The notes beneath the pieces are model-generated. The model was not told the origin of the DNA. It searched no databases and saw only the letters and a list, made by a program, of their open reading frames with translations. 46,332 nt of DNA from an uncultured Bacteroidia bacterium (GTDB lineage: Bacteria > Bacteroidota > Bacteroidia > Bacteroidales > UBA932): the NCBI GenBank assembly GCA_902797035.1, contig CADBRH010000047.1, forward strand, positions 1-46,332. Direction: 5' to 3'. Numbering within the stretch: position 1 is the stretch's first letter; every line of letters starts with the position of its first letter. The position numbers were made by a program, and so were the translations under genes. Shown piece by piece: positions 9,552 to 46,332 of this stretch.

Positions 9552-10187
9552 TTACTCGAGGCTTTCCAGCTCGACATCATGCAACGCGGACAGGCTGTGA
9601 AGCAGGTCCGCGTTGTATTCTTTCTTTGGGACAAACAGTTCGACCGTCGCCTTGAAGAGATCGCCTTGCTTGGACATGGAGAAACTCTTCGCCTTCTTGC
9701 CGAATGAGTCGACCGCATCCACCAAAGACTTCTCGTCTTTGGATACTAGAGTCGCGGTCACTTCCTTCGCGCCGAACTTAAAGCTGTACAGGTTCAATCC
9801 CTCCATGCAGAGAAGGACAAGGGCGGCGCAGACAAGGGCGAGGACATACATCCCGCAACCCACGCACAATCCCATGGCGCCGGTTACCCATAGACCGGCG
9901 GCCGTGGTGAGCCCGCTGATGTGAGTCTTCTTGATTATGAGACCTCCTCCCAGAAAACCGATTCCGGTGACGACTCCGGCCGCGACACGGGCCGCGTCAA
10001 AACGCTCGGAGTTCAGGAAGCCGTTCTGGGATATTATCATGAACAGGGCGGCCCCGAGGGCCACAAGGAAGTGCGTGCGGACTCCGGCGCCCTTGGCCCG
10101 GAGCTCTCTCTCGTACCCGATGGCGGCCCCGATCAGGCCCGCCACCACCAGACGAAGGCTTAACTCAAGTGTGATATTCATGGTCAT
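9552..10187 (-). CDS. MgtC/SapB-family inner-membrane protein
   Basis: This is a 211-residue protein with four or five N-terminal transmembrane segments and the family signature GAAIGYERELRAKGAGVRTH (about residues 20-39), followed by GIGFLGGGLI and GLTTAAGLWV. The last 65-70 residues form a soluble ACT-like tail. Family members are linked to magnesium limitation, membrane potential or acid adaptation, but the molecular role is not settled. It begins 6 nt after the phosphodiesterase-like gene on the same strand, so it may be the last gene of the PUL transcript, or simply a neighbour with read-through. A second in-frame Met two codons downstream (10181) is an equally possible start. Confidence 0.88.
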   Translation of the reverse strand: MTMNITLELSLRLVVAGLIGAAIGYERELRAKGAGVRTHFLVALGAALFMIISQNGFLNSERFDAARVAAGVVTGIGFLGGGLIIKKTHISGLTTAAGLWVTGAMGLCVGCGMYVLALVCAALVLLCMEGLNLYSFKFGAKEVTATLVSKDEKSLVDAVDSFGKKAKSFSMSKQGDLFKATVELFVPKKEYNADLLHSLSALHDVELESLE

Positions 10188-10193
10188 CTTTAA

Positions 10194-11753
10194 TTATTCG
10201 TGGTAAAACATCGAGGCCGGGATTTGCTCCACATCGACTCCGGGACCGGTCAGCCCGACCTCCAGGGTCTCGCCACCGTAATTCTCGAAGAACTGTATCT
10301 CAACGCGGTGGTATCCCTCCTGAAGCTCGATCCACGAATCGGAGAAGCCGCCTCCGTCACGGTCGATGTCAAATAGAAGCACACCGTCTAAGAACAGTTT
10401 TGAACCGTCATCCGATGCCAGAGAGATCTGGTAGAGACCGGTCTGGTCAATTTTAATCAAGGTTTTGAAGACGAAACCGAAATGATCCTCTCTCAACTTG
10501 GCGCTCAGGTCGAGGAACGGCACGGTGCCGCGGGCCCTGACAGGGCTCGCCAGCACCTCCGCGACGCTCATGAAGTCTCCCTCATGGTAGGTGTAACTGA
10601 CGCCGTGGCCTTTGGGCGTGGCTTTCACGGCCTCGAAACTATAGGAAGCGACCGGAGGCTCGGGCTCTTTATAATACTCCGGGTCGAAAGGCTCGCTCTT
10701 AACACCGTTGTCAGGGGTGAAGTCAATGCCAAGGATGTCCGCTATCGTGGCGGCCAGCTGCCTTGAGTAGAACTTTCCGTTACCGGAAGTCTCCCCGAGA
10801 ACGGGAACTCCCTTGCCGAAAGCCATCAGCCAGGTCTCGTTCGCCCCGCGGAGGTCGGCGCCGTGGCCATGGAAACGCTCACCGCGGCCGCGGCCATGGT
10901 CGGTCGTGATGAGATACGTTGTCTTGCCCTTGTAGAAGGGATCAGCCTCGCAAGCCTCCACGATGTCCTTTATGCAGGCGTCGGTAGTGTTTATCGAATG
11001 GAGATACTTGCCGTAATCACCGCTGTGCCCGGCCCCGTCAGTCCCGCCGAAGGAGATGAAGAAGACCTTCGGGTGATCGTTCCTGATGGTCTCGAGGGCG
11101 TAAGCGTAAGTATAGGCGTCGGGTCGCTCGTCTCCCTTGGTGTAGCCAAACTCGCTCTCCTGCATCCTGTCTATCATCTTGAGGACAGGACTCGGGTCAG
11201 GCGAAACGTTCGGCTCGAAAGCCGTGCTACCGGGAAACCCTCCCTTGTCGTTGTTCACGGCATAGCGTATGGACTCCCAAGAGCCATAAACCATGACACG
11301 GCCTTTGTACCTCGGGTCACGGTTGGCCACCTCGAGAACGCTCGTGTTGGGGTTCTCGACAGGGTCGTTACTGTCCACCCTCTCGTCATCCGCCCATCCG
11401 CAGAACAGTTCGCTGTAGCCGGGATAGGAATATGACTTGTTGTTGGCGAGTGACATCAGGCTGTTCTTGTTCCGGTTGCCGAGCATATACCCGTGGGAGG
11501 GGGCATATCCCCAGGCGAAAGGCATCAGCGCCTCCCTGCGCTCCTCCGGGGTGGACCTCCAGTATTCGGCCTTCACGGCATCTATGTCGGTGACGAACCT
11601 CGGGTCAGAGACCAGCGACGAGTCGGCCCCGGTGAACACCTCCTGCCAACGTAAACCATCGTAGGTGATCACTATCACTCTAGGGTCATTGTCTCCGCAA
11701 GAGGCCAGCAAGGCCGTCAAGGCGACCATAAGGACTAAAAATGTCTTTTTCAT
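10194..11753 (-). CDS. Lipoprotein alkaline-phosphatase-superfamily hydrolase with C-terminal PA14 domain
   Basis: This 519-residue protein has a lipoprotein signal (LLASC, C19). The catalytic domain (about 25-370) belongs to the alkaline phosphatase/type I phosphodiesterase superfamily: D32 in VITYDGLRW, a PGYSELFCG segment likely to hold the nucleophile, GTDGAGHSGDYGKY with metal-binding Asp and His, and TTDHGRG followed by HGHG. Residues 385-519 are a PA14 module (DHFGFVF, SDDGSKLFLDG, HRVEIQFFE) of the same type as in the DUF4838 and GH92 proteins of this locus. Probable action is cleavage of a phosphate mono- or diester on a glycan; sulfatase activity is less likely, since I see no C/S-x-P-x-R formylglycine motif. 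Its start overlaps the regulator stop by 4 nt (ATGA), which suggests translational coupling. Confidence 0.82.
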   Translation of the reverse strand: MKKTFLVLMVALTALLASCGDNDPRVIVITYDGLRWQEVFTGADSSLVSDPRFVTDIDAVKAEYWRSTPEERREALMPFAWGYAPSHGYMLGNRNKNSLMSLANNKSYSYPGYSELFCGWADDERVDSNDPVENPNTSVLEVANRDPRYKGRVMVYGSWESIRYAVNNDKGGFPGSTAFEPNVSPDPSPVLKMIDRMQESEFGYTKGDERPDAYTYAYALETIRNDHPKVFFISFGGTDGAGHSGDYGKYLHSINTTDACIKDIVEACEADPFYKGKTTYLITTDHGRGRGERFHGHGADLRGANETWLMAFGKGVPVLGETSGNGKFYSRQLAATIADILGIDFTPDNGVKSEPFDPEYYKEPEPPVASYSFEAVKATPKGHGVSYTYHEGDFMSVAEVLASPVRARGTVPFLDLSAKLREDHFGFVFKTLIKIDQTGLYQISLASDDGSKLFLDGVLLFDIDRDGGGFSDSWIELQEGYHRVEIQFFENYGGETLEVGLTGPGVDVEQIPASMFYHE

Positions 11754-12931: not shown

Positions 12932-12943
12932 GATAATCAGTTT

Positions 12944-14398
12944 TTAATACTCGTTAATAGCTCTCTCGAACCTGCCTTCCAGGTCCGAGAGTCTATAAAG
13001 TCCGTCAGGATTGGCCTTCAGCCCCTTTAGAGAGACCGGGAAGGCGACCGGAGTCTCACCAGGACCAAGCATCGGCATGGATCTGAGCTGGGAAGGAGTC
13101 TCGTAAACCAGGAAAAGCCCGGCGTATCTCCCGCCGTCTTTCCCGTCCCACAATGTCACCATCAGTTTGGAGCCTATCGGGGTTTTCTTCTCAATGGCGT
13201 CAGGAAGGGAATAATCCTCGGCGTCCAAGGCCGCCAGGACACTGGCGATATTGGAATCGTGACCGCAGAGGAAACTGAACTTCCGGCCCTTCTCCCTCAT
13301 CTCCGAGAGCATGGTCTCCAGAAGAGGGCGCGACACATTGACCGCCACGGCGGGTGCGGTGAACAACACATCGCCGTACCAGTCTTTGATCCCGGCGACG
13401 CTCTCCCACTCGCTGACGGAGAAATCGTGGCCGAAGGCGGCGCTAGTCTCAGTGGGAGCCTCATAATACTGCAGTGTCATCGCGTCTGAGGCAGAGTTGG
13501 CCATCTTGAAACCACCGGTCATGGCCGGTTCCTTCCCCTCTTCCAGCTTTATCTCAAGGTCATCCGTCCTGAAAAACAAGGTGTCGTTGGCCGCCGCGGG
13601 CGAGCGCCTGATGTCCAGGACCTTCTCGAGAACGGCGAAATTGGGAGCCAGCTTGGAAGCGACGCCCTTGAGCCCTTCCTTGCCTCCCATGGCCTTGATC
13701 TGGGTCATGGCCTTCTCACGGAAAGCGTCGTCGATATTCGTCAGCCTCGGGTTGAAGACTGGATCCATCGTCCCGAGAGGATAATGCCGCTCCACCTTGA
13801 CGTTCGCTATCGGGAGCATCCCGCTTGAGAAATACTGGGCGGTGGCGATTGTGCGCTGCATCGAGTTGGCGTAAAATCGTGTGGCTCCTTCCGAAGGGAT
13901 CTCGTTCTCCGTCATCAAGCCCTCGCTGACCAGCCACTGGCGGAAGAACTGCCCCATCATGGTCTCCAGGGCGCCTCCTTTGAGAGAGAGCTCACCGGGA
14001 GCGGATGTCCAGTCGAACCAGTTGTGAGGGGTGATCCTCGACAGCACGGAGCCGCCTCCCGACAGAGGGGAGCGGATGTTGTGGCGACTCAGCGCCACGA
14101 CCCTCTCAAGAGTGTAGCGGTCACGGAAGCCCTCCTGAGGGAATATCCATGTCGTGAGGTCACCGGGGGTCTCGGCGGGCTTATTCCCATTGACCCAGAC
14201 ATAGAACCCGGAACCGGCGCCACCGAAAGGGATGAAGACGATGTACCCTGGTAACTTGTTGACAGCGAATATCTTCTCGTTCTCCCTATCGTTCTTCGAG
14301 GAGGTTCCCCGGGAATTGACATCCAACCCTTGAGCGACGGCCACCGTGGCGGCGGCCATCGCAATCAGAAACACTATCGCCTTCTTTATCATCATCAT
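12944..14398 (-). CDS. Secreted histidine acid phosphatase (branch 2), phytase or sugar-phosphatase type
   Basis: The catalytic motif reads RHNIRSP (residues 105-111 from the start used here), a variant of RHGxRxP with Asn for Gly. The proton-donor motif CGHDSN is near residue 370. Family enzymes remove phosphate monoesters from inositol phosphates, sugar phosphates or other small molecules outside the cytoplasm. I chose the start at 14398 because it yields a normal signal peptide (MMMIKKAIVFLIAMAAATVA, cleavage after VAQ) and begins 1 nt after the upstream stop; the longer frame to 14452 would add 18 residues overlapping the DUF4838 gene. About 80 residues of unclear role lie between the signal and the RHN motif. 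Confidence 0.82.
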   Translation of the reverse strand: MMMIKKAIVFLIAMAAATVAVAQGLDVNSRGTSSKNDRENEKIFAVNKLPGYIVFIPFGGAGSGFYVWVNGNKPAETPGDLTTWIFPQEGFRDRYTLERVVALSRHNIRSPLSGGGSVLSRITPHNWFDWTSAPGELSLKGGALETMMGQFFRQWLVSEGLMTENEIPSEGATRFYANSMQRTIATAQYFSSGMLPIANVKVERHYPLGTMDPVFNPRLTNIDDAFREKAMTQIKAMGGKEGLKGVASKLAPNFAVLEKVLDIRRSPAAANDTLFFRTDDLEIKLEEGKEPAMTGGFKMANSASDAMTLQYYEAPTETSAAFGHDFSVSEWESVAGIKDWYGDVLFTAPAVAVNVSRPLLETMLSEMREKGRKFSFLCGHDSNIASVLAALDAEDYSLPDAIEKKTPIGSKLMVTLWDGKDGGRYAGLFLVYETPSQLRSMPMLGPGETPVAFPVSLKGLKANPDGLYRLSDLEGRFERAINEY

Positions 14399-14399
14399 A

Positions 14400-16655
14400 T
14401 TAATTGTCCGGGACAAAAAGCCTGTCGGCCGGCAGAGGGCCGTGATAGCCATCAGGGGCGATCACGCTAACCTCAAGCCGCTGCTCCTCACAATCCTCAA
14501 AAAAACGCAATGTCAGCCGATGCAAACCTTTCTCAAGGTTGACCAGCGCCCATTCCGTCCGAGCCGAGTGGGAGCCGTCGCTGTCAATCACTTTCTGGCC
14601 GTCTATGAATAGAACCGAACCATCGTCCGACACGATTTTGAATCGGTGGAAACCATCCTCAACGGCCATGAACCAGGTGTCAAACACGTGGCCGAAATGG
14701 TCTTTCTCAGGATCGGGGTCAATAAATATGGTCTCCATCACGCCTTCTTCCACGACCTTTCCCCCGGAGAGCATCTCGTCAGTGGACATGAAATCACCCT
14801 CATACTTGATGTATGAGACTCCCGGCCCGGAAGTCTCGGCCCTGGTTGAAGGCAACATCCGCGAACCGGCCATGTCCCTGGCCATCTTGTCATATTTGTC
14901 GATAACCTCCTTGGCGGTCATATACGTGCCACCCCAGGAGCCTTCGGCCATCCTGTCAATCCCTTCCCTTTCCACCACGCGTCTGAAGATGGTGTCGGCG
15001 CCTTCCTGGAGCGCCTTGACCGGATCTTTTTCCAATTGAAGGAAGCGAAGGGGCATCTCGGCGGTCTCAACCCTGTCGTACAAGACACTATCCGAGGCCA
15101 CAGCCTCCTTCGCGGAGGCGAATATCCTTAAGCCCTCCGTGATGAACTCGTCCGTGTACATCTCGTCCGAGGGCGTGATATAGCAAATCCCGTGAATCCC
15201 CGGTCTTCGCAATATCCTGTCCTCAAGGTCCAGATATTCCCTGACGAAAGGTCCGGCGGCTCCGTAATATCCATCGGTGAAGTCCTTGATCAGGGCATCC
15301 AAGTCCGCGTCGGGGTTCCACATGAGTTTAGAGAGAAGCCACGAGCGCATCTCCCTCAACTCGCATGATGTCGTCTGATAGTCACCTTCCTCGAGGATGC
15401 CGATGGCGTTATTGTCCCGGAAGTCCTGAATATGTGTCCGCATGGTCTTCCAATTGGCCACAGGCAGGCAGTACTCAAGGAAATCGGTCACATAGTCCCA
15501 GATGTAAAGGTGCGGGGCAATGGCCGACCACTCCTGAAGATCCTTCAGGAAATCCACGTTGCGCTCGCAGTCATCATAGTCGTGCAGCATGCAGCACTCG
15601 ATGCCGCAAAGGCGGATGACGACATTATCCCTCGGGACTATGTCTTTCGGAGCGTGGCGGGTATACTGATAGGCGAAGGTTCCGATGAACTTGTCAGGGA
15701 ATTCCTCCTTGACAGCGTCGGCGACCTGATTCACGAACCACAACATTATTCCCGACTGACCGCCATACTTCTCCGCGAGGGCGGCGCACTCGTCGCACTC
15801 GCAGAAAAGGAAATTATCCGCCTGTTCCATAGAGTAGATCAGATAATCTGGCTCGCGGCGCATGACATCCTTGATTCTCTCGACGCAAAGATCAAGCACT
15901 TCCGGATTGGACAGGCACAATTGTGAATACCCGGACTGCCTCTTCCCGTCCCTGAGGCTGAAATACTCAGGATGACTGGAATAGAATTCCGCGGGAGTGA
16001 TCAAGTATCCCATCGAGTGCACCCCCCAGTAACCCTCGGCGGTACCGGGTAGAGTCTCCCCCGGCCTCTCCCCGGGCAGCCTTATGAAATTGTTCCTCAA
16101 CCTGGCCGAGAAAGCGGGATTCGTACGGACATCCAAGACGCAATTGTCCCGGATGAGTATTCCCGGTTCCTCCCTTCTGCTTATATTCCGGAAACTCCAG
16201 GAAGAGAGGGACGGGGCCACGCTTACCTTGCTTGAATACCATCTGCAACCAAGCTCCTCCTCAAGGAAGGAGTACACCGAATAGAGGGTGCCTCGTTTGG
16301 AGCCTCCCCAGAAGAAGATATCCCCTTCCCGGCTTCTGACCTCGAAAGAGTCGTCCCTGTCCTCCGGCTTGACGGTATCAGGGAAATAATTCTCCACAAG
16401 GGAGTTATACCCTACAACCAAGCGTTTCCCCGCTTGCCCGCCGTCCAAGTCGGTGACAGGCAGCTCCACGCCTGAGACAGCCTTTATCCAATCCCTCAAC
16501 TCGGTGGCGGCGTACCGCTCCGAGGCAGGGGCGTCGCGGGCGATGACTATGGTGTATTCCGATCCACCTTCCTTGAAAAGGGAATGGAGACCGCATGATG
16601 TCAGCAAGACGAGAGCGGCGATAGCGGCCAGAACGGTGAAAGGCTTGATCCTCAT
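14400..16655 (-). CDS. Lipoprotein DUF4838 protein with GH67-like N-terminal domain and C-terminal PA14
   Basis: This 751-residue protein has a lipobox LLTSC (C21). The N-terminus (about 30-150) resembles the non-catalytic alpha-glucuronidase GH67 N-domain (ASERYAATELRDWI, then RGTLYSVYSFLEEELGCRWY). The middle (about 190-480) is DUF4838, with QLCLSNPEVLDL, FCECDECAALAEKYG, a cysteine-rich stretch, and DFLEYCLPVANW. Residues 613-751 are a PA14 module with KDHFGHVFD and SDDGSVLFIDG. DUF4838 is common in Bacteroidetes PULs and is thought to be a TIM-barrel glycosidase-like domain, but I know of no firmly assigned activity. It lies between GH2 and the histidine phosphatase with 1-3 nt gaps. An alpha-glucuronidase-like or other exo-glycosidase role is possible, not shown. 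Confidence 0.8.
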   Translation of the reverse strand: MRIKPFTVLAAIAALVLLTSCGLHSLFKEGGSEYTIVIARDAPASERYAATELRDWIKAVSGVELPVTDLDGGQAGKRLVVGYNSLVENYFPDTVKPEDRDDSFEVRSREGDIFFWGGSKRGTLYSVYSFLEEELGCRWYSSKVSVAPSLSSWSFRNISRREEPGILIRDNCVLDVRTNPAFSARLRNNFIRLPGERPGETLPGTAEGYWGVHSMGYLITPAEFYSSHPEYFSLRDGKRQSGYSQLCLSNPEVLDLCVERIKDVMRREPDYLIYSMEQADNFLFCECDECAALAEKYGGQSGIMLWFVNQVADAVKEEFPDKFIGTFAYQYTRHAPKDIVPRDNVVIRLCGIECCMLHDYDDCERNVDFLKDLQEWSAIAPHLYIWDYVTDFLEYCLPVANWKTMRTHIQDFRDNNAIGILEEGDYQTTSCELREMRSWLLSKLMWNPDADLDALIKDFTDGYYGAAGPFVREYLDLEDRILRRPGIHGICYITPSDEMYTDEFITEGLRIFASAKEAVASDSVLYDRVETAEMPLRFLQLEKDPVKALQEGADTIFRRVVEREGIDRMAEGSWGGTYMTAKEVIDKYDKMARDMAGSRMLPSTRAETSGPGVSYIKYEGDFMSTDEMLSGGKVVEEGVMETIFIDPDPEKDHFGHVFDTWFMAVEDGFHRFKIVSDDGSVLFIDGQKVIDSDGSHSARTEWALVNLEKGLHRLTLRFFEDCEEQRLEVSVIAPDGYHGPLPADRLFVPDN

Positions 16656-16658
16656 GAA

Positions 16659-21168: not shown

Positions 21169-21807
21169 TCAAATATAGAAATTAATTCCGATTCCAAGGA
21201 CGTGTTCCGCCGGAATACCATTGAAAGCGTAGTAAAGATAATAAGCCTCCAGCTGGACCACCTTGGAAATGTCGTAGTCGCAGGCGACATAGTGCCTTGT
21301 CTTCTTCCACACGTCCCCCCACGTGAACACCTCGGCGGCTAGGTAAGGGCTGAAACGAGTCCCTGGAATTGAATATTGTACCTTCAGCCTTGAGCGTAGG
21401 ACATTCCCGCTCCCTCCGGTCGCGGGGGTCCAGTCCCGCATGTACCTTTCCCTGACAGAGACCTTAAAGCCGCCTTCCTTAAGCGTGGCGGTGAGGTCGA
21501 GGACCGCCCTGTGGGTAATCCAGGAAGGCTCCCTCATGAAGTCATAGGCGACATCAGCCTTAAGCCAAGGGAATATCTTGACACCCAATGTGGTACGGGT
21601 GTACCAGCACTCCAGGCGCCGGTACTGGAAATTGTCATGCTCAAAGTAGAAACCGGCGAAGAAAGGGCTGTTCCCGAAATCGTGGAAAACCTCGAGGAAC
21701 TCCCATCCGCCGAAGGTGTTGTCCTCTTTCTCCTGCGCCCGGGCGGAGAGGACGGGCAGGAGAAGGAGTGACGCGGCTATCAAGATTGACCTTAAAAACC
21801 TCATCAA
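21169..21807 (-). CDS. DUF2490 outer-membrane beta-barrel protein
   Basis: This 212-residue protein has a Sec signal peptide (cleavage after ARAQ, about residue 25). The mature part alternates hydrophobic and polar residues and is rich in Tyr and Trp (WLKADVAYDFMREPSW, RFSPYLAAEVFTW), and it ends in aromatic INFYI, as outer-membrane barrels do. The pattern fits DUF2490, a family of predicted small outer-membrane barrels of unknown function. It sits inside the enzyme run, 9 nt after GH106, so it probably belongs to the same transcript. A role as a narrow pore or surface anchor for the PUL is inference. Confidence 0.78.
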   Translation of the reverse strand: MMRFLRSILIAASLLLLPVLSARAQEKEDNTFGGWEFLEVFHDFGNSPFFAGFYFEHDNFQYRRLECWYTRTTLGVKIFPWLKADVAYDFMREPSWITHRAVLDLTATLKEGGFKVSVRERYMRDWTPATGGSGNVLRSRLKVQYSIPGTRFSPYLAAEVFTWGDVWKKTRHYVACDYDISKVVQLEAYYLYYAFNGIPAEHVLGIGINFYI

Positions 21808-37698: not shown

Positions 37699-38877
37699 TT
37701 ATTCGTCCACAAAGACTTTCTTTACAGCGTCGAGATAGCCGTAGCCGAAGACATCGTCAGGCTGAAGGTAACTGGTCTCGGTCCACTCGTTCCAGGAATT
37801 GATTGTGATCAGTTTGTGCGTCTTGGGACGGGCGTCCAACCAGGCTTTGGCCTTCCTGAGGGCCGCCTCGAAACGCTCGGGGGTGTTGTCTTTCACAACC
37901 GCGCTGTCACCTGTGCGAGGACTGTTGTCCCATCCTATGCTGACATGGGGGTAGTAAGGGATCGTGAACTCCTTGTCCAACTTGTCCCACTCCTCATAGG
38001 CCCTGTCGAGGATATTCTGGTAGTCATCGTCCATCCAGATGAAATGGCAGAACTGGTAATGCGACATGCTGTTGAAGCCCAATTTGCGGGCGAAGGCGTC
38101 GCGCGGGCGCTCGGAGCCGGCTTTGGCGGCGTCAACACCGCTGTAGTTGAACTGGGTATCCCACATCGTGAACTGGAGCTCCAGATCCGGGAAGCCCGCC
38201 TTCTTGACCTCAGCGCGGAACCACTTCAGGGCGTCCACGGCGGCATCCACACCGCCTATCCCCTCGATGAAGGTGGTGACCTCGTAGATCATGAACACCG
38301 GCTTGCCGTCAATCTTGTAGTAGTTCGGCTGCTTGAAGAACATCTCGATGTTCCTCTTGCAGACTTTCTCGAACTCCTCGCGGTCCACTCCTCCCCTCCA
38401 GATGATGTTCTCACTGCCATATTTGGAAATACGTGTGTCCCAATAGTTCTCCACATTGTGGTTGGCCCACATAAGGTAGAATTTCATCTTGTCCCTGTTA
38501 CGGGCTTTCAGGAAACCGTTCGTGAGGGTCGTCTCCATGAAGGGCCTGCCGTCAAACCAGTACCAGTCGAATATGAACACGTTCACCCCGTGACCGACGG
38601 CCTGGTCGATTTCCATCTCCATCACCGCCGGGTCGGCCTCGTTGACATATCCCCAGAGAGGATGCCGGTCCCAATAATGGCCGGGATTGCGCTGCTGCAT
38701 GTTGTAAACGGTCTCCCACTCGCCCATTCCCTGGGGCCAGAAAGGCCTCAGGCGGGGGTCGTCGGCGGCGTAGGCGGGATAGAGGTAGGCAGCCACGTCA
38801 TACTTCTGCTGGGCCTTGAGCCCGAGGCTCAAGGTGGCCAGCGCTGTCAGGATAATGTATAATCTCTTCATGTTCAA
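37699..38877 (-). CDS. WbsX/GH99-like secreted protein
   Basis: This 392-residue protein has a Sec signal (cleavage about LKAQ, residue 23). Family traits of the WbsX/GH99-like group are AAYLYPAYAADD near the mature N-terminus, GVNVFIFDWYWFDGRP (97-112), GKPVFMIYE (191-199) and TINSWNEWTETSYLQPD (358-374). The last aligns with the NEWHEG-type motif of GH99. WbsX was named as a glycosyltransferase in O-antigen clusters, but a secreted copy within a PUL is better read as a glycosidase. Activity is unassigned. Confidence 0.82.
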   Translation of the reverse strand: MNMKRLYIILTALATLSLGLKAQQKYDVAAYLYPAYAADDPRLRPFWPQGMGEWETVYNMQQRNPGHYWDRHPLWGYVNEADPAVMEMEIDQAVGHGVNVFIFDWYWFDGRPFMETTLTNGFLKARNRDKMKFYLMWANHNVENYWDTRISKYGSENIIWRGGVDREEFEKVCKRNIEMFFKQPNYYKIDGKPVFMIYEVTTFIEGIGGVDAAVDALKWFRAEVKKAGFPDLELQFTMWDTQFNYSGVDAAKAGSERPRDAFARKLGFNSMSHYQFCHFIWMDDDYQNILDRAYEEWDKLDKEFTIPYYPHVSIGWDNSPRTGDSAVVKDNTPERFEAALRKAKAWLDARPKTHKLITINSWNEWTETSYLQPDDVFGYGYLDAVKKVFVDE

Positions 38878-38889: not shown

Positions 38890-39930
38890 TTATCTGAAAT
38901 GAACTACATGGACATCCCCATTGTAGGTGGCCCCGACCGTGTACTGGATGGCTGTCGGGGAGAAACGCTCCTCGAAGAAACGGTGCATGTGCCCTGCCAG
39001 GATGGCCTTGAGAAGCGTCTGCCCCTTGAGCCAGGCGAGGAAATCCAAGGTGGGCTTGTCGGCCCTCTGCTGAACCTTACGGTAACGCCACTCCTGGCCT
39101 TCCGGGTAGGTCTTGCCCGGGTCGTATGTCTCGGTTATCTCGAGAGGGACTCCGGTGAGGTAGGCGCAGTTACCGTTCATGGCCTCAAGCTCTGACTTGC
39201 AGAACTCGGGGGTATAGACAGGGACATGGCAGAGCATCACCACAGGGAGACCCTTCTCCATCTCCTTCTCCATCCTCAGGCGCTGATCCTCCGTGAAATT
39301 GTAATACACGTCGTCCACAGCCACGAAATTCACCCCGTTGATTACCCGGCTGGCGAAAGTCAAGTCGTTGGGGAAAGCGCTCTGGACAGACTCCCGGCTG
39401 GACGCCTTGTAGGCCTCGTCCTCCTTGGCCTCGCCGACGTATTTGGAATACTCGTGATTCCCGGCGCACACGAACCAGTCCGCCATCAGCATGTATCTGG
39501 CCGTCATGTCCAGATTGGCCTCCGAAACGAAATCATACATGTCGCCGGTGTGCATCATGTACATTCCGTGGTCGTTGGCGTGACGGATGGCCTCCTCCAA
39601 ATAATGCTCGCCGAAACCCATGTACCTTTCCCGGCGGGCGGCAAGCCACGCCTTCCTCTCGTCGTCGCGATCGTCGGAGAGCGTGATGTGGGTGTCGGAG
39701 ATATGCATCACGTCAAAGGGCTTCGTCGCTCCGATGTCGATTGTTATCTCTTTGATATTAAGAGGTTTGAATCCCTCAACATCCCTGGATATCCTATCCT
39801 TGAAGTCTAGCGGAGGGATGACGCCATCACCTTTCCCCGCCTTTATCGAGCCGCCTTTAGGGACGCATCCCGACAACGCCAGCCCGGCGGCCGCGGCGCC
39901 TGAAACCTTTATGAAATCTCTCCTGTCCAT
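38890..39930 (-). CDS. Tat-lipoprotein calcineurin-like metallophosphoesterase
   Basis: This 346-residue protein has a twin-arginine leader (DRRDFIKVSG) with lipobox LSGC (C22). All metallophosphoesterase motifs are visible in order: DTH (79-81), GDMYD (129-133), GNHEY (157-161), CHVPVY and, near the C-terminus, GHMHRF. The expected role is hydrolysis of a phosphate mono- or diester outside the cytoplasm. With the histidine phosphatase, the PA14 phosphodiesterase-like protein and the MBL protein, it makes four such hydrolases in one unit. The leader is close to that of the MBL protein at 26381-27304. Confidence 0.88.
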   Translation of the reverse strand: MDRRDFIKVSGAAAAGLALSGCVPKGGSIKAGKGDGVIPPLDFKDRISRDVEGFKPLNIKEITIDIGATKPFDVMHISDTHITLSDDRDDERKAWLAARRERYMGFGEHYLEEAIRHANDHGMYMMHTGDMYDFVSEANLDMTARYMLMADWFVCAGNHEYSKYVGEAKEDEAYKASSRESVQSAFPNDLTFASRVINGVNFVAVDDVYYNFTEDQRLRMEKEMEKGLPVVMLCHVPVYTPEFCKSELEAMNGNCAYLTGVPLEITETYDPGKTYPEGQEWRYRKVQQRADKPTLDFLAWLKGQTLLKAILAGHMHRFFEERFSPTAIQYTVGATYNGDVHVVHFR

Positions 39931-39940
39931 ATTCTTGGTT

Positions 39941-40945
39941 TTATTTTAACTCCAATCCCTCGTGAACGGCGTAGCCGATGTATTCCATACTCTCGTCACG
40001 GCCGTTGTACCATAGTTGCCAACGGTTGTTCTCCTCGTCCCTGAAAACACTGGGCTTATAACACGACGAGGCGTCGAAATAGCCCGGTGTCGGAGCCACC
40101 AAAGGATTGGTTTCCAGCCGTTTCCACTGCCTTATGCCATCCGGTGAGACCGCCGCGCCGATGTTCGCCGTGTCGATGTCCGAGTAGCCGATGTAGAACA
40201 TGATGAAAGAGCCGTCGGGAAGCGGATGCACCTCGCAGCCGCCTATGCGGTCCCTCTCCCAGCCCTCGCCGTGGACGAATATGGGATTGAGCGGGGAACG
40301 CTCCCAGTTAATACCGTCCCTCGACTCGGCGTAGGCGATCATGTTAGGCTCGTAGGTCTCGCCGCAGGCGTACCACATCCGGAAGACTCCCCTGTCCTCG
40401 TCGAAAAGGACATACGGATTCATGACGGAGTAGCCCTCGTAATTGTATGTCGGGATCAAAACCGGGTCCGTCGTGACGCGCTCGAAAGTCTCGCCGTCTT
40501 CCGAGACAGCGTAACCTATCTTGCTGTAACCTCTGGCTTGTCCGGTGTACCACATGTGGTAAACCCCGTTCAGATACAAAGTGCAGGACCTGTTGATATT
40601 GTCCTCCCAACCGCTGGACTCGTCATATTCAAGAACGATCTTCGGATCGGTCCAGATGACGCCGTCCTCGCTCCGGCACAAGGCTATGGCCTTTTTGGGG
40701 CGCCACGAGAAATACATGTTGTATTTGGCGGAACCTTCGGGGATCACGTTCACATCAAAGCAAGTTCCCAGCTCAGGGCTTCCGAGGACTGGTCCGCCCC
40801 CGAGTTTCACCCATCCGTTATCGTGTCCGGCGGCGGGGATGAACTCCGGGATAAGGTCATCCTGACCGGCTCCGGCAAGCGTCCGGTTGTCCTTGCAGGA
40901 GCAGCAGATGGCCAACAGTATCGGGAAGAGAATCAGTTTTTTCAT
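39941..40945 (-). CDS. Lipoprotein five-bladed beta-propeller, glycosidase-like (GH43/GH32/GH130 type)
   Basis: This 334-residue protein starts with a short signal and a cysteine cluster (ICCSC, 13-17), so lipidation is likely though the exact Cys is unclear. The mature part has repeated propeller blades with the pattern Y-x-M-W-Y and S-x-D-G: YNMYFSWRPKKAIALCRSEDG, then YHMWYTGQARGYSKIGYAVSEDG, FRMWYACGE, FIMFYIGYSD and WQLWYNGRDE. This fits glycosidase or phosphorylase propellers of the GH43, GH32/68 and GH130 groups. A clear catalytic triad is not obvious, so an assigned family would be a guess. It follows GH92 by 43 nt, a gap with a possible promoter. Confidence 0.75.
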   Translation of the reverse strand: MKKLILFPILLAICCSCKDNRTLAGAGQDDLIPEFIPAAGHDNGWVKLGGGPVLGSPELGTCFDVNVIPEGSAKYNMYFSWRPKKAIALCRSEDGVIWTDPKIVLEYDESSGWEDNINRSCTLYLNGVYHMWYTGQARGYSKIGYAVSEDGETFERVTTDPVLIPTYNYEGYSVMNPYVLFDEDRGVFRMWYACGETYEPNMIAYAESRDGINWERSPLNPIFVHGEGWERDRIGGCEVHPLPDGSFIMFYIGYSDIDTANIGAAVSPDGIRQWKRLETNPLVAPTPGYFDASSCYKPSVFRDEENNRWQLWYNGRDESMEYIGYAVHEGLELK

Positions 40946-40962
40946 TTCTATGTCATTAAATA

Positions 40963-40995
40963 CAAAAGATAATGATTATCCTTCAAAATCACAAA
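40963..40995 (-). promoter_or_regulatory. Possible internal promoter before the propeller gene
   Basis: On the minus strand TTTG (40992-40995, overlapping the GH92 stop), a 20-nt spacer and TATCTTTTG (40963-40971) resemble the Bacteroides promoter, with one extra base in the -7 element. It would start transcription about 10 nt before the gene at 40945. The match may be chance. Confidence 0.28.
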
Positions 40996-43880
40996 TGATG
41001 AGACAGGGCGCCGGCTGGAATCGGCTCGAAGTCTCCGGACGACGGGCTTTTCCAACTCCAGGAAAGCGTCTGTCCCTCATAATCCTCAAGGTAAACGAGG
41101 CGGAAGGCATGAAGCCCCTCCCTTAGGGCTATGCGACCGGTGGCGGTGTAGTCGGAGTGGGAGCCGTCATTGTTCACAGCGAGGCGGCCGTCAATCTCCA
41201 GCACGCTTCCGTCGTCACTCCTGAGGGCGAACTCCCAAAGACCGTCCTCAGGAATGTCAAGATAACCAGTGAACACATATCCGAAATGGTCCTCGTCAGG
41301 AGCGTCGGAGATGGAGGGTGTCGGCATGGTCCCGTTGGAAACCACCGGGGAAGACAGCACATCGGCGGCTTTCTTAAACTCGCCAAGATGGTATGTGTAG
41401 AGGCATCCGGGACTGGTGGAAGAGACATTATCAGCCGGGAGATACTCAATCGGGAAAGCATGTACAGTCATCTCAGGACTAGGCTCGAAGCCATCCTTGA
41501 AAGCTCTTGCCACCAGGTAGACATCCTGGTCTATAATGAATGGCTTATCATACAGGGTAAGGTCCACCGAGATGTCCTCTCCGTCAATGAAATAACGTAT
41601 CTCGGCACCTTCTGTGCGGGAACGGAGTTCAGCCATGAATTCTTTGTCAAAAAAGCGGGGATCCCCTACCAAATACGGAGTGGAGACGACCTTACCATCC
41701 GACAATGAGTATGGGGCCTTCATCGCGTCCATGTCGTGAACAGGTTCCTTCGACAACTTAAAAGAAAGCTCGCCACCACCCGTTAACTGGTCATAGGTTA
41801 TGTACCGAGCCTCGATCGGCACGCCGTTTAGCGACACTTCTTTGATGTATGAGTATTCCGGATGGTCAGCGCTTATTATCAACTTGTTCCCATTTCCAAA
41901 AGTAACCGTCGCTTTCGGGAAGACGGGAGCTGAGAACACAAATTCTCCCGTACCCGGGCAGAGAGGATAGAAGCCAAGGGCGGCGAATACATACCAGGCG
42001 CTCATCTGGCCGCAGTCCTCGTTGCCGCATAGGCCGTCGGGTCCAGTAGCATACAGATTATCAATTATTTCCCTGACATAGCGCTGGGTGGAAGACGGAT
42101 CGCCAAGAGCCGTGTACAGCCATGCGGTGGCGTGGTCAGGCTCGTTTCCGTGGGCATATTTGCCGATACGACCTGTCACGAACCACTCGGCGTGGTCATC
42201 AAGACTCTCGTAACCCTCGGAGAACAACGAATCCAAAGAGGCCTTGGCCGCTTGTGTACCGCCTGATAGGGCGGCGAAACCAGCCACATCGTGTATCACG
42301 AAATGACGGTACTGCCAAGCGGTGGCCTCCGTGTAGTCACGCGAGGACTCCCTGCCGGTCCCGTCGGGAGTGAACGGGGCCCTCCAGTTTCCGTCGGAGT
42401 CCTTTCCCCGGAAGAATCCCGTGGAAGTATCCAGGATATTCCTGTAGCGGAGCGCTCTGGCGTCATATTCAGCGGCTATCTCAGCATGGCCGAGCGACTC
42501 CGCCATACGGGCTATGCACCAATCATCGTAGGCATATTCAAGAGTCATCGAAACTGACTGAGGGGTCAAGTCGCAAGGAATGTAACCATATTGGTTGTAC
42601 CAATCAGTGGCGGGATAGGAATTAGAGGAAGCGATCATCGCCTCTAACGCCTTCTCACCGTCGAAACCCCTTATTCCCCGCAGCCAGGCGTCCGCTATCA
42701 CCGAGACGGAATGATAGCCGATCATGCAGTCCACCTCATCTCCCCATAGTGGCCACAGAGGAAGCTGGCCGTTAAGGTCGTACATATCCAACATGCTGAA
42801 AACCATTCCTCTCACAAGATCCGGTTCCAGCAGGGTCATGAGGGGGTTCCATGTACGGAACGTGTCCCAGAGGGACAATGGGAAATAGTATCCCATTCCG
42901 GAAGGGACTGTCCTGACCTCCCCGAGATGGTTCTTGTAACGGCCGTCAAGGTCTGCCATCTGGTTGGGAACGACAAGACAGTGGTAAAGGGCGGTGTAGA
43001 AAACCTTCCGGCGCTCTTTGTCTCCTCCTTCCACGGCGATTCTGCCCAGACTGGAGTTCCATGCGACTTCAGAGGCTCTTGAAGCGACATCGAAATCGGT
43101 CCCTGGAATCTCCGCGAGACGGTTATTCTCAGCTCCTTCCTCATCAACGGAGGATAATCCAACGCTGATGGTGAGACGCTTTGTGGTTTCAGGGAAAGTG
43201 AGGAGATAGCGGTCATGCCCGTCTGAGACACATTCTTCGATTGGTTCAGAGAATAAGGCGGAGAAATACACCCACCGGTCAGGAGCCCAGCCTTTCACAT
43301 GCCTGCCACCCACAATCCGGTCGTCAGAAACAACATTAAAGAATATCCCGTCGGCCTTGGCGAAAGCTAAAGTATGGCCCATATCCACCAGAATCCTCCT
43401 TTTCCCTTTCCCTGAGAAAGAATAGCGATGGCAACCTGTATGCGACAAAGCTGTCATCTCGGCCGTGATGCCCAGAGTAGGGAATTTGACACGGTAATAT
43501 CCGGCGCTCGCTTTCTCGTTTTTATGTGAGAAAGGAAGCGGAGGAACCACATAGCCCTCCTCACCCTGAGGAACTTCCCCGATAACCGGCACAAAAAGGA
43601 AATCACCGAGATCCCCTTGACCGGTACCGCTGAGATGGGTGTGGGAGAAGCCAAGAATCAGGCTGTCTGTATCGTGGTAGCCAGCCACTCCCCCATTAAC
43701 AGTATCAGGCCCCAATTGAACAAGGCCGAACGGGGCCGACGCGGCTGGGGTGGTGTGGCCGTCCAAGGCGGTTCCTATGAAAGGGTCAGCTTCCTTTTCC
43801 TGACTCGCTTCGGAAGAGCAGGCGACAACCGCGGCGAGCGCCACCAAAATAAGAAAGCGCGACAGTTTATCCATATTCAT
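40989..43880 (-). CDS. Lipoprotein GH92 alpha-mannosidase-type enzyme with C-terminal PA14
   Basis: This 963-residue protein has a lipobox VVAC (C21). The GH92 N-domain has DPFIGTALDGHTTPAASAPFG (32-52) and GFSHTHLSGTGQGDLGD (77-93). The (alpha/alpha)6 domain has the likely acid E518 in YTEATAWQY, HGNEPDHATAWLY (577-589) and the base-bearing motif GNEDCGQMSAWYVF (619-632). A chitobiase-C-like domain (about 740-815) precedes a PA14 module (827-963; DHFGYVF, SDDGSVLEIDG). GH92 enzymes are calcium-dependent exo-alpha-mannosidases; linkage cannot be read here. It is the first enzyme gene after susD, separated by 113 nt with a hairpin. Met codons at 43880 and 43874 are both possible starts. Confidence 0.92.
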   Translation of the reverse strand: MNMDKLSRFLILVALAAVVACSSEASQEKEADPFIGTALDGHTTPAASAPFGLVQLGPDTVNGGVAGYHDTDSLILGFSHTHLSGTGQGDLGDFLFVPVIGEVPQGEEGYVVPPLPFSHKNEKASAGYYRVKFPTLGITAEMTALSHTGCHRYSFSGKGKRRILVDMGHTLAFAKADGIFFNVVSDDRIVGGRHVKGWAPDRWVYFSALFSEPIEECVSDGHDRYLLTFPETTKRLTISVGLSSVDEEGAENNRLAEIPGTDFDVASRASEVAWNSSLGRIAVEGGDKERRKVFYTALYHCLVVPNQMADLDGRYKNHLGEVRTVPSGMGYYFPLSLWDTFRTWNPLMTLLEPDLVRGMVFSMLDMYDLNGQLPLWPLWGDEVDCMIGYHSVSVIADAWLRGIRGFDGEKALEAMIASSNSYPATDWYNQYGYIPCDLTPQSVSMTLEYAYDDWCIARMAESLGHAEIAAEYDARALRYRNILDTSTGFFRGKDSDGNWRAPFTPDGTGRESSRDYTEATAWQYRHFVIHDVAGFAALSGGTQAAKASLDSLFSEGYESLDDHAEWFVTGRIGKYAHGNEPDHATAWLYTALGDPSSTQRYVREIIDNLYATGPDGLCGNEDCGQMSAWYVFAALGFYPLCPGTGEFVFSAPVFPKATVTFGNGNKLIISADHPEYSYIKEVSLNGVPIEARYITYDQLTGGGELSFKLSKEPVHDMDAMKAPYSLSDGKVVSTPYLVGDPRFFDKEFMAELRSRTEGAEIRYFIDGEDISVDLTLYDKPFIIDQDVYLVARAFKDGFEPSPEMTVHAFPIEYLPADNVSSTSPGCLYTYHLGEFKKAADVLSSPVVSNGTMPTPSISDAPDEDHFGYVFTGYLDIPEDGLWEFALRSDDGSVLEIDGRLAVNNDGSHSDYTATGRIALREGLHAFRLVYLEDYEGQTLSWSWKSPSSGDFEPIPAGALSHHL

Positions 43881-43903
43881 TCTTGTTTATTACCTTCTTC
43901 CCT

Positions 43904-43911
43904 CAAATTTA
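43904..43911 (-). promoter_or_regulatory. Possible -7 promoter element upstream of GH92
   Basis: TAAATTTG on the minus strand matches the Bacteroides TAnnTTTG element, 24 nt before the first GH92 start codon and just beyond the hairpin at 43935-43971. No good TTTG is found about 20 nt upstream, so support is weak. Confidence 0.25.
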
Positions 43912-43934
43912 AGGATTAATTCTGACTAATAAGA

Positions 43935-43971
43935 GAGGCCGGGCGAGAATCTGAAGTTCTCGTCCGGCCTC
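43935..43971 (-). terminator. Hairpin between susD and GH92, probable attenuator or processing stem
   Basis: Arms 43935-43949 and 43957-43971 pair over 15 positions (14 Watson-Crick and one G-T on the DNA as written) around a 7-nt loop. The stem begins 22 nt after the susD stop on the minus strand. What follows is AT-rich but lacks a strong T-run, so partial termination or 3'-end protection of the susCD message is more likely than complete stop. Confidence 0.6.
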
Positions 43972-43993
43972 CCTTCAAGCTATAGAGGAAGGG

Positions 43994-45619
43994 CTACAGA
44001 CTCTTGGGAGCGCTGCTCTTGCTCTGGGTGTTGCCTTCTCCGCCAAGGGCCCAGTAGAGGTTGCTCTGCTGGTCGCGGGTGCCACCCTGATACTTGGAAG
44101 GCATCATCGCGGAGTTGGTGTTGTACTCGTTGTCCGGGTAAGGGATACGCTGCACGATATTGCCCTCGCCCACAAGGGAGCTGGGGTGGATGGTCGGATA
44201 AGTCAACACACCGCTGAAATAATCCGGATAACCGGTCCTGCGCTGGTCGCACCATGCCTCGGCCGAGTTCGGGAACATCGCGATCCACTTCTGGATCATC
44301 ACGCTCCTGAGGGCGTTCTCACCGCTTCCGAAGGACGGCAGGGCGGCGATGTAGGCGTTCTTGTCCGCCTCGCTGACCGTAGCGGTGCCGCCGGAGGTCT
44401 GGATAATGAATCCAACCTCATCCATGGAGGCCTTGATACCCTCCTTCCAGAACGCCTCGGCGTCGCCGGACATCCATCCGCGGAGAACAGCCTCAGCCTT
44501 AAGGAAGCAAGTCTCGGAATAGGTGGCCAGACACCAGGAGAGGTTCTCCTTGCGGGTGTTGTGGAAGTTGAAATAGAAGAAACCGTTCTTGTCGTAGCAG
44601 TTCAGCAGGGCGAACGAGCGGTCTCCACCGTGGGCCTTCTTGACGTCGGCGCGGGTGTCGATGGCGTAGTTACCGTTCGGGAAACCGTCCCAGCCGCTGC
44701 CGCTGATAGCGCCGGTTCCTTCAGCGAACCAGAATCCGCGGCGAGGATCCACGATGCCGGTGGCGTAACCCTTGTTGACGCCGTTCATCATATCCATGAA
44801 GTCGGCGCTGGTGAAGGTGTTGGCCCAATCGTAGAAGGTCCTGTCATAGTAGTCACCCCAGACATAGGTGTCGCAGTTGACGCGGGCGTAGTCGCTGGGG
44901 GCGCTCATTGCTCCGGCAACGGCTCCAGAGAACGCAGCCTTAAGGGAAGCGGCCTCGCTGGTGTTGCTCATACGCATGGCGAGACGCATAATCAGGGTGT
45001 TGGCCAGTTTCTTCCACTTGCTCCAGTCGTTGGCGTACACGAGATCGTAGTCGCCGAAAGTCTTGGTCCCGGGAGATGAGAGAAGAGCCACGTCGGCCTG
45101 AAGCCTGCTCACCAGGTCGGGATAGATATCCTTGATGGAGTTGTAAGGCATCGTGACGCCCTGGCCGGCGTAATTGCCCTCGGCGTCCTTGTAAGGGGCG
45201 TCGCCGTAGCGGTCGATAACGCGGAGCCAGAGAATTACGTTCCAGATGTCGTTGGCGGCCTTCATCCCGTTGTAGTCGGTGTCGTCACCGATGATGGTGT
45301 TGATCAGGTGATACTCCGGAAGACGCTCTGTGTAGAAATCACGCCAGTAGATATTGCCCCAACCCTCGTTGTAACGCCAGTAGTCCGTCCAGCCGAGACC
45401 CTCGGCGAAGTAGTGGGCGTACATGTCGTCATTGAGGTTGAAGTTACGCTGGTGGTCGTTTGACATGCCGTGATAAACGCAGCGGGCGAACACCATGTGA
45501 GCCTGCACGGAGCTGGCTGTCAGCGCTGTGGAGCTGGTGTTCATCTCATCGAACTTCTCGGTGCAGGAAACCGCGAGAAGGGCGATGGAAGCCATTACTA
45601 GAATAATATACTTTTTCAT
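43994..45619 (-). CDS. SusD/RagB-family glycan-binding outer-membrane lipoprotein
   Basis: This is the surface lipoprotein that captures glycan over the SusC pore. From the start used here it has 541 residues with lipobox AVSC (C19) after MKKYIILVMASIALL. The helical TPR-like N-terminal half (IWNVILWLRVIDRYGDAPY, WKKLANTLIMRLAMRMSN) and the C-terminal LRSVMIQKWIAMFPNSAEAW, RRTGYP and IVQRIPYPDNEYNTN are typical of SusD-like proteins. I chose 45619 over the longer frame to 45688 because it gives the lipoprotein signal at the N-terminus and avoids overlapping SusC. It begins 14 nt after the susC stop. Confidence 0.94.
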   Translation of the reverse strand: MKKYIILVMASIALLAVSCTEKFDEMNTSSTALTASSVQAHMVFARCVYHGMSNDHQRNFNLNDDMYAHYFAEGLGWTDYWRYNEGWGNIYWRDFYTERLPEYHLINTIIGDDTDYNGMKAANDIWNVILWLRVIDRYGDAPYKDAEGNYAGQGVTMPYNSIKDIYPDLVSRLQADVALLSSPGTKTFGDYDLVYANDWSKWKKLANTLIMRLAMRMSNTSEAASLKAAFSGAVAGAMSAPSDYARVNCDTYVWGDYYDRTFYDWANTFTSADFMDMMNGVNKGYATGIVDPRRGFWFAEGTGAISGSGWDGFPNGNYAIDTRADVKKAHGGDRSFALLNCYDKNGFFYFNFHNTRKENLSWCLATYSETCFLKAEAVLRGWMSGDAEAFWKEGIKASMDEVGFIIQTSGGTATVSEADKNAYIAALPSFGSGENALRSVMIQKWIAMFPNSAEAWCDQRRTGYPDYFSGVLTYPTIHPSSLVGEGNIVQRIPYPDNEYNTNSAMMPSKYQGGTRDQQSNLYWALGGEGNTQSKSSAPKSL

Positions 45620-45633
45620 AAGGCGGTGTCTGT

Positions 45634-46332
45634 TTAGAAGCCGATAGTGATGGAAGCGCCGAAATTGCGCGTGGTCGGATACGGGCACATGTCAAACGCT
45701 GAGGCGAAGATGGACGTATCTGTGGAAGAGCCATCCGGAGTGGTTCCGGGGGTGTGGGAGATCAGGTAGACAAGGTTGCTACCATAGACAGAGAACCTGG
45801 CTGTCCTGATGAATCCGCCCGCGAAGCGGTCAAGGCATTTGCGGGAGATGTTGTAGCCGATGGAGGCCTCGCCGAGTTTCAGGAACGAGGCGTCATACAT
45901 GAACTCCTCGGCCGGGGAGTTGGTCCAGAACTTCTGGGCGTCCACGGTGGTGCCGTTGAAGGAGTAGCTCGAACGCTCCTCGGTACGGGCGGCGGTACCT
46001 GCGTGGGCGGCGCTATATTCAGTCACGGAGAAGAGCTTGCCACCCTTCTTGAAGTTGAACAGGGCATTGGCGCTGAACTGCTTCCAGTCGATATTCAGAC
46101 CGAAGGAGCCGGTGAAGTCAGGCTGGACGGAGCCAAGGAACACCTCGGACTGGGAGACGGGGAGACCGTCCTTCATCTCGATCTTGCCGGAGGCGTCACG
46201 GACGTAACCGGTGCCGTAGATGGAGCCGATGGGCTCGCCCTCGATGGCGCGGACATAGACTCCGGCGCTGCCGGTCATGTGACCCAGCTCATACTGGTCA
46301 ACCTTGATGCCAGCCTCGGCGTCCTCGTAGAG
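45634..46332 (-). CDS. SusC/RagA TonB-dependent outer-membrane transporter, C-terminal part (cut by window edge)
   Basis: The frame is open from the stop at 45634 to the right edge, giving the last 232 residues; the rest lies outside the window. The segment VRAIEGEPIGSIYGTGYVRD, then FLGSVQPDFTGSFGLNIDWK, FLKLGEASIGYNIS, ARFSVYGSNLVYL and the final ASITIGF are classic for the C-terminal barrel of SusC-like proteins, ending in an aromatic residue. With SusD it forms the import complex of the PUL. The true start, and any TonB box or N-terminal signalling domain, cannot be seen. Confidence 0.95.
   Translation of the reverse strand, partial: LYEDAEAGIKVDQYELGHMTGSAGVYVRAIEGEPIGSIYGTGYVRDASGKIEMKDGLPVSQSEVFLGSVQPDFTGSFGLNIDWKQFSANALFNFKKGGKLFSVTEYSAAHAGTAARTEERSSYSFNGTTVDAQKFWTNSPAEEFMYDASFLKLGEASIGYNISRKCLDRFAGGFIRTARFSVYGSNLVYLISHTPGTTPDGSSTDTSIFASAFDMCPYPTTRNFGASITIGF

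Follow-up and report, generated by a model that had tools for sequence, protein, structure and literature searches.

A putative three-unit polysaccharide utilization locus with a one-chain GH78-GH3 enzyme in an uncultured Bacteroidales bacterium

We analyzed a 46,332-nt stretch of DNA (the window) from an uncultured Bacteroidia bacterium of the order Bacteroidales (UBA932; GenBank assembly GCA_902797035.1). The window is the entire contig CADBRH010000047.1 (C47) of a genome bin of 2.27 Mb that is 84% complete. It carries a cluster of glycoside hydrolase (GH) genes of the polysaccharide utilization locus (PUL) type, in which one gene encodes a GH78 and a GH3 catalytic domain in a single chain. 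The explanation that best accounts for the findings, to which we assign a probability of about 0.5, is a PUL in three units that would act on a branched, rhamnose-rich, phosphate-bearing heteroglycan. Genomes, contigs and loci of relatives are designated by G, C and L numbers.

An earlier, sequence-only reading of this DNA described a one-strand run of about 21 genes in more than 36 kb. The open reading frame (ORF) map, the translations and Pfam searches bear this out: 21 genes, all on the minus strand, occupy positions 9552-46332. From the 9552 end upward the gaps are 6, -4, 12, 1, 3, 6, 31, 12, 31, 15, 30, 10, 23, 0, 2, 18, 10, 43, 113 and 14 nt, values that depend on start codons that we set at signal peptides. 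The gap pattern first described is also reproduced, in that the 20 gaps include a single overlap (4 nt), a single exact abutment and a single long gap (113 nt, 43881-43993), and the other 17 are 1-43 nt. As a control, a crude greedy ORF caller was run on a further 319,683 bases of this genome, in stretches of 15 contigs whose ends can cut runs. The longest same-strand run there was 10 genes (20.2 kb), itself cut at a contig start, and 21 genes in 36.8 kb are unusual for this genome because the control maximum is only 10. Short gaps are normal for the genome, since 77% of the 159 same-strand control gaps were 45 nt or less. The nearest named relatives are Bacteroidales, mostly metagenome-assembled genomes from ruminant forestomachs (cattle, goat and deer stomachs), and the same genome encodes elsewhere an L-rhamnose isomerase (two pieces, at contig ends) and an L-fucose isomerase.

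Pfam confirmed most of the enzymes first read from the letters, namely GH92, GH43, GH95, two GH78, two GH3, GH106, GH2, DUF4838 and a GH32/GH130-type propeller, with the amendment that one of the GH78 and one of the GH3 domains belong to a single protein. Two further proteins had been called GH99-like. One (37699-38871) stands as a match to WbsX instead of the GH99 model, against which it scores 18.9 bits (cut-off, 33), and the other (34199-36130) falls below the same PF16317 cut-off at 17.2 bits. The latter protein is conserved at 70-86% identity in nine relatives, and its structure model, made with 10 close homologs, has a mean predicted local distance difference test (pLDDT) score of 35. 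By our own reading of the translations, many of the block enzymes carry lipobox-like signal peptides. The enzyme families are mostly exo-acting and strip alpha-L-rhamnose, fucose or L-galactose, xylose, arabinose or glucose, and mannose. Carbohydrate-active enzymes are linked here as in SusCD-type PULs, the linkage is kept in relatives, and the original proposal of a PUL-type locus whose enzymes point to a branched, rhamnose-containing heteroglycan is upheld. We consider a rhamnose-rich branched glycan to be the probable substrate.

The GH78-GH3 fusion, which the earlier reading overlooked, is a single ORF with both catalytic domains by Pfam, and we are highly confident of this modular architecture. 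Both GH78 copies of the locus carry PF17389 and PF17390 (6-hairpin catalytic domain). In the fused half, D368, E373, D380 and E631 are invariant across 11 homologs, and in this copy only they align (E 7.9e-25) with D567, E572, D579 and E841 of the rhamnosidase RhaB (2okx), which we take to be its acidic active-site residues. Searched against the PDB, the GH3 half matches two xylosidases best (7zb3, E 1e-141; 8c7f), with glucosidases and other proteins lower down, and its best NCBIfam model is beta-xylosidase/alpha-L-arabinosidase at 511 bits, under the cut-off of 1050. Both GH3 copies carry PF00933 and PF01915, and the sequences VVSDYGG and VVSDCGG are present in them; the nucleophile Asp of GH3 enzymes sits in the SD motif.

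To place the fusion among relatives, an alignment of 11 GH78 sequences was scanned against one genome per species, and the best 80 of 545 confirmed loci were kept. The GH78 frame continues into GH3 in 18 of these best 80, all at least 67% identical to the window GH78 half; two (L063 and L070) are cut by a contig end, and L069 and L077 share one genome. Among 90 other genomes of the same genus, five full-length fusions were found, four of which are taken as already among the 80, such that G090 adds one. A quick GH78 tree took in the window sequence together with 34 of the 80 loci (every locus with at least 58% identity, plus six others). When L066, which carries a scar, and L079, which is cut by a contig end, are left out, the fusion appears as one gain. 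L066, taken as G033, falls inside the fused clade, where the fusion was lost: its GH78 runs into the first GH3 residues, then jumps in frame to the last GH3 residues, and a free GH3 is retained elsewhere in the locus. In L080, GH78 and GH3 are adjacent and unfused, with separate starts and signal peptides, which is likely the pre-fusion state. A DNA similarity search against plasmids returned no record spanning 80% of the fusion.

The window proteins were then compared with those of 19 loci or locus sets retrieved from relatives; as many of these are partial, an absence may reflect a contig end. Differing subsets of the 18 proteins encoded between GH92 and the PA14 gene, both included, are found there at about 58-90% identity; among these, the fusion or one of its halves, the second GH3 (GH3b), the metallo-beta-lactamase-fold protein, GH95, GH43, WbsX, GH106b, DUF2490 and the second GH78 (GH78b) recur at about 60-90%. 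Gene order is kept, with extra genes, in G042, G017 and G090 and is reordered in G033. Across relatives, the enzyme genes stay linked but are shuffled. Neither the SusC/SusD type of the window nor MgtC was found in any of the 19 sets, and for this reason we delimit the conserved block as GH92 to the PA14 gene (43880-10194). With the SusC/SusD type of the window absent from these sets and a hairpin that parts SusD from GH92, the earlier idea of one continuous unit starting at susC is not supported. On the left, the OPT, M20, epimerase and KBL genes that flank the block in G017 and G042 are the same four found in G072; these three flanks have neither MgtC nor the plus-strand GH106, and the block ends at the PA14 gene (in G072, at the regulator). 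Thus, MgtC and the plus-strand GH106 look like later insertions at this edge, which would itself be an insertion site, and that GH106 is possibly part of the same system.

At the right end, SusC and SusD genes adjoin, SusD being recognized by PF12741 and SusC being completed by another contig of the bin, C4. Aligned to the G190 ortholog, the last ORF of C4 accounts for residues 1-799 and the piece in the window for residues 798-1029. The two contig ends have 8 nt in common, read in the same frame, and no other match in this genome exceeds 37%. The C4 part of this SusC2 carries the TonB plug and barrel domains. From these matches C4 most likely lies directly upstream of the window contig, which would therefore extend the same-strand run to at least 24 genes. 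C4 also holds SusC1 (cut, 78%), SusD1 (77%) and a putative surface binding protein (42-43%), which went unseen in the sequence-only reading. Because C4 holds this set plus the rest of SusC2, the locus here has two SusCD pairs, and the combined order is SusC1-SusD1-binding protein, hairpin, SusC2-SusD2, hairpin, enzyme block. The 113-nt gap between SusD2 and GH92 contains a strong hairpin and a TAAATTTG box that fits TAnnTTTG, presumably the Bacteroidota -7 box. Folding of the sequence after five SusD2 orthologs gave a hairpin with a T-run in every case (z -2.9 to -5.0). This arrangement suggests separate transcription units, with the two SusCD units each ending in a terminator-like hairpin.

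Relatives indicate how the transporters relate to the block. Upstream sequence of the GH92 ortholog is included in seven of the 19 sets, and SusC1 lies there in six (G090, G033, G210, G211, G217 and G219); in G042, the seventh, no SusC1 appears before the contig end. SusD1 and the binding-protein gene follow SusC1 wherever these stretches extend, with identities to the G090 set of 80-94% (SusC1), 76-97% (SusD1) and 39-100% (binding protein). The set is co-directional in G210, G211 and G217 and divergent in G090, G033 and G219. SusD2 orthologs occur in six of 12 genomes carrying the fused enzyme, and the block's GH92 was not beside them in the surroundings of five of those six or of others in the genus. 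In a genus sample of 151 genomes, the block GH2 was matched in 14 and SusD2 in 10, with both present only in G000 and G181. Upstream of GH92, G090 shows an apparent scar of a deleted SusC1-SusD1-binding-protein cassette (L023:2380-2617) beside a tyrosine integrase gene (L023:2672-3688), and because of this scar the site seems to exchange transporters. Together, these comparisons argue that the enzyme block is the more constant part and that transporter cassettes are swapped upstream of it. An invertible switch was considered for a 48-nt inverted repeat around the integrase by SusC1 in G090 and was rejected: it proved to be the scar, with the SusC start joined in frame to the binding-protein end, and is absent in G219. 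An AAA-ATPase-like gene directly precedes GH92 in G090 (L023:1308-2390, by Pfam) and, judged by N-terminus, in G033, G210, G217 and G219.

The block also contains three phosphoesterase-type genes (His_Phos_2, Metallophos and Metalloenzyme-PA14), a content not remarked on in the earlier reading. The histidine phosphatase scores 318 bits against the glucose-1-phosphatase model (cut-off, 425) and has the RHN.R.P and HDSN motifs, a pattern typical of Agp-type phosphatases. Two short stretches derived from a LacZ-type GH2 form its N-terminus. In G090 there is a 1,619-residue lectin-LacZ-phosphatase protein (L021:2506-7365), and G017 and G042 have LacZ without the phosphatase. GH3b lacks a PA14-type insert, identified as PA14 by Pfam in G090, that five of the six relatives compared possess; its absence leaves a clean, in-frame gap, and L080 lacks the insert as well. 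Further fusions occur in relatives: G072 has GH43-CBM6-GH106 (L051:12922-16587) and GH43-GH95 (an ORF crossing L051/L052, G072:C16:16730-20638), and G003 has an apiosidase-like domain joined to GH92 and PA14 (L027:19221 to L028:3663; G003:C56:49220-53662). Near the G090 block (L023:11897-18116) lie genes for an alkaline phosphatase, an MGH1-like glycosidase, a ROK-like kinase (by N-terminus) and an EEP-GDPD double phosphoesterase, and look-alikes of these cluster genes, again judged by N-terminus, are present in other relatives.

Table 1. Features of the window, from the contig end downward. Residue ranges are approximate.
Feature	Position	Strand	Basis
SusC2, C-terminal 232 aa (TonB-dependent transporter)	45634..46332	-	Homology, no Pfam match; cut by contig end
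SusD2, SusD-like lipoprotein	43994..45619	-	PF12741, E 1.4e-63
Hairpin 3' of SusD2, terminator-like, weak T-run	43920..43990	-	-33.3 kcal/mol, z -4.33
TAAATTTG box, fits TAnnTTTG	43904..43911	-	23 nt upstream of GH92 start codon
GH92 (alpha-mannosidase family) + PA14; first conserved-block gene	40989..43880	-	PF07971, E 4.6e-159
Five-bladed-propeller hydrolase, GH32N/GH130-like	39941..40945	-	PF00251, E 4.6e-9; PF04041, E 4e-8
Metallophosphoesterase with twin-arginine translocation (Tat) signal	38890..39930	-	PF00149, E 2.5e-8; PF10518
WbsX/GH99-like enzyme	37699..38871	-	PF14307, E 8.5e-47
GH43 + C-terminal ConA-like domain	36131..37696	-	PF04616, E 2.5e-59; top PDB match 6mly, bifunctional GH43-carbohydrate esterase (CE)
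Conserved lipoprotein, weakly GH99-like	34199..36130	-	PF16317, E 0.0029, below cut-off
GH95 (alpha-L-fucosidase/alpha-L-galactosidase family)	31797..34175	-	PF22124, E 3.4e-165
GH78-GH3 fusion lipoprotein, 1,483 aa	27335..31786	-	Pfam; GH78 ~1-745, GH3 ~753-1483
Metallo-beta-lactamase-fold hydrolase, Tat-like N-terminus (our reading)	26381..27304	-	PF00753, E 1.5e-9
GH3 (GH3b), beta-xylosidase-like	24260..26365	-	Pfam; NCBIfam Xyl3A 677 bits, cut-off 1250
GH106 alpha-L-rhamnosidase family (GH106b)	21817..24228	-	PF17132, E 5.6e-110
DUF2490 protein	21169..21804	-	PF10677, E 2e-14
GH78 (6-hairpin) lipoprotein (GH78b)	19410..21137	-	PF17389, E 1.5e-21
GH2 lipoprotein	16659..19403	-	PF02837, E 1.2e-12; PF02836
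DUF4838 + C-terminal PA14	14400..16655	-	PF16126, E 2.5e-95
Agp-like histidine acid phosphatase with eroded LacZ-type GH2 piece at N-terminus	12944..14398	-	PF00328, E 8.1e-16
XylR-type regulator (our name): periplasmic-binding-like sensor + AraC helix-turn-helix	11750..12931	-	PF13377, E 8.9e-25; PF12833
Alkaline-phosphatase-superfamily metalloenzyme + PA14; last conserved-block gene	10194..11753	-	PF01676, E 4.9e-9; PF07691
MgtC-family membrane protein, co-directional	9552..10187	-	PF02308, E 9.8e-36
Second GH106, outside run	4080..7313	+	PF17132, E 6.8e-266

The sequences show the gene content, the fusion with its history on the tree, the linkage in relatives and the junction with C4; enzyme activities, cleavage order, transcription units and substrate are inferred from them. 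We propose that the locus works as three same-strand units: SusC1-SusD1-binding protein on C4, SusC2-SusD2, and GH92 to the PA14 gene. The SusCD pairs would bind and import oligosaccharides, and lipid-anchored exo-enzymes would then remove the branches. GH78 and GH106 would take off alpha-L-rhamnose, GH95 a fucose or L-galactose cap, GH3 and GH43 xylose, arabinose or glucose, GH92 mannose and the phosphoesterases phosphate groups. The GH78-GH3 chain would set an alpha-L-rhamnosidase beside a beta-xylosidase-type exo-enzyme, such that the sugar exposed by one could be cut by the other, and the XylR-type regulator would sense a released sugar. A Pfam search of the 21 genes, which did not extend to the rest of the genome, found no polysaccharide lyase, GH28, GH105, GH88 or carbohydrate esterase; DUF4838, DUF2490 and the 34199 protein lack an assigned activity, which limits this negative for pectin enzymes. 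By Pfam, the same 21 genes include no sulfatase or lyase family of the kind that a PUL for ulvan or sulfated rhamnan would carry. Because backbone-cutting pectin enzymes are missing from the run and GH92 and phosphoesterase-type genes are present, we favor a phosphate-bearing, microbial-type glycan over pectin. We give a phosphorylated, non-pectic substrate somewhat less than an even chance.

Several observations weigh against this three-unit, phosphate-bearing reading. The histidine phosphatase occurs in just two of the 19 locus sets, so phosphate may not be general, and the phosphoesterases could instead serve phosphate scavenging. The superfamily of the PA14 metalloenzyme also includes sulfatases and mutases. 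GH3, GH43 and GH2 are polyspecific, and equivalog cut-offs are unmet for the GH3, GH2, GH43 and phosphatase proteins. TAnnTTTG sites are no commoner in the window than expected by chance (9 versus 8.5), and the terminator scan did not pick the hairpin upstream of GH92, which was found by reading and folding; counts from these simple promoter and terminator scans were close to the shuffled level. Fused and free copies are intermingled on the GH3 tree, whose root lies on a very long branch; four changes are required, and strong branch support forces three of them. This mixture is most simply read as gene conversion or replacement between paralogs, with the GH3 half replaced or copied at times. 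Finally, a GH92-family gene, 33-37% identical and on the same strand, lies directly or closely downstream of SusC2-SusD2 in three of 10 loci, and SusC2-SusD2 itself may serve mannosides and work with GH92 though encoded in a separate unit. These loci are L044 (G206), L143 (G216) and L145 (G220), and they led us to drop the description of SusD2 as being followed by unrelated genes.

The strongest competitor, which we hold to be possible and less probable than the reading above, is a plant cell-wall PUL for side chains of rhamnogalacturonan I (RG-I), rhamnogalacturonan II (RG-II) or arabinogalactan protein (AGP), with backbone lyases and polygalacturonases supplied by other loci or species. GH78, GH106, GH95, GH2, GH43 and GH3 are all used in pectin or AGP breakdown, and the nearest relatives come from the ruminant forestomach. 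Some relatives add GH127 and apiosidase-like genes or domains, which also fit a plant side-chain glycan and so count against our own preference. This explanation leaves GH92 and the phosphoesterases without an obvious role and has to contend with the missing backbone enzymes. More speculative is an undescribed type of PUL whose substrate would be a microbial cell-envelope glycan that contains rhamnose and mannose and bears phosphate. In it, neighboring enzymes would have been fused again and again under selection for channelling (GH78-GH3, LacZ-phosphatase, GH43-GH106, GH43-GH95 and apiosidase-like-GH92); we regard it as unlikely in this full form, as we do the accompanying notion of GH78-GH3 as a one-protein, two-step debranching machine.

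Less probable still is a cluster for detoxifying or scavenging small plant glycosides such as saponins or flavonoid rutinosides, with GH78-GH3 as a one-chain naringinase. Naringinase logic combines GH78 with a beta-glycosidase, and the fusion unites these two kinds of activity; the GH3 half, however, resembles a xylosidase more than a glucosidase, and GH92, the two GH99-like proteins, DUF4838, the SusCD pairs and the phosphoesterases exceed what glycosides would need. In favor of such a cluster, a trisaccharide locus for potato glycoalkaloids has been described (PMC9597252). A misjoin of SusC2/SusD2 to the enzyme block, for which it counts that this SusCD type adjoins the block in none of seven relatives with GH92-upstream sequence and none of 10 SusD2 loci, was seriously considered as a chimeric contig and mostly rejected, and is now very improbable, since residues 1-799 of this very SusC are encoded on C4, after the SusC1-SusD1-binding-protein set that neighbors the block in relatives, and two separate contigs agree on gene order.

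The fusions give a testable rule, namely that enzymes in one chain should act on neighboring linkages. If this rule holds, orthologous loci with differing fusions would reveal the structure of the glycan eaten by forestomach bacteria, and if that glycan belongs to a cell envelope, fused pairs would read out its neighboring sugars. Exchange of transporter cassettes bears on how PULs switch substrate, and a one-chain rhamnosidase/xylosidase is potentially useful for glycan analysis or processing.

The earlier reading could name no matching PUL, and the parts of the open-licence literature returned by our searches likewise gave no PUL recognizable by this enzyme set; string and combination searches of the same kind of source did not turn up a GH78-GH3 chain. 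SusCD PULs as such are a known kind. In its SusC/SusD pairs, lipoprotein glycoside hydrolases, dense co-directional genes and regulator with a sugar-binding-type sensor, the locus resembles Bacteroidota SusCD-type PULs; it differs in having two SusCD pairs, a two-enzyme fusion and three phosphoesterase-type genes, and no hybrid two-component or extracytoplasmic function (ECF) regulator is encoded in the window. GH78, GH106, GH95, GH2 and GH43 are shared with the rhamnogalacturonan PULs of B. thetaiotaomicron, whereas by Pfam the 21 genes here lack the lyase, GH28, GH105 and esterase, and add GH92 and phosphoesterases. GH92, GH99-like proteins and phosphoesterases recall alpha-mannan and phosphomannan PULs, as do the alkaline phosphatase and EEP-GDPD near the G090 block, but here rhamnosidases, GH95, GH43, GH3 and GH2 outnumber the mannosidase. 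The GH78 half shares its four aligned acidic residues with the distant Rhamnosidase B (PDB 2okx), and is here fused to GH3. Like naringinase, a rhamnosidase plus beta-glucosidase, the fused enzyme would remove rhamnose first and then the underlying sugar; unlike naringinase, it is one polypeptide with a xylosidase-like GH3 half, encoded inside a PUL.

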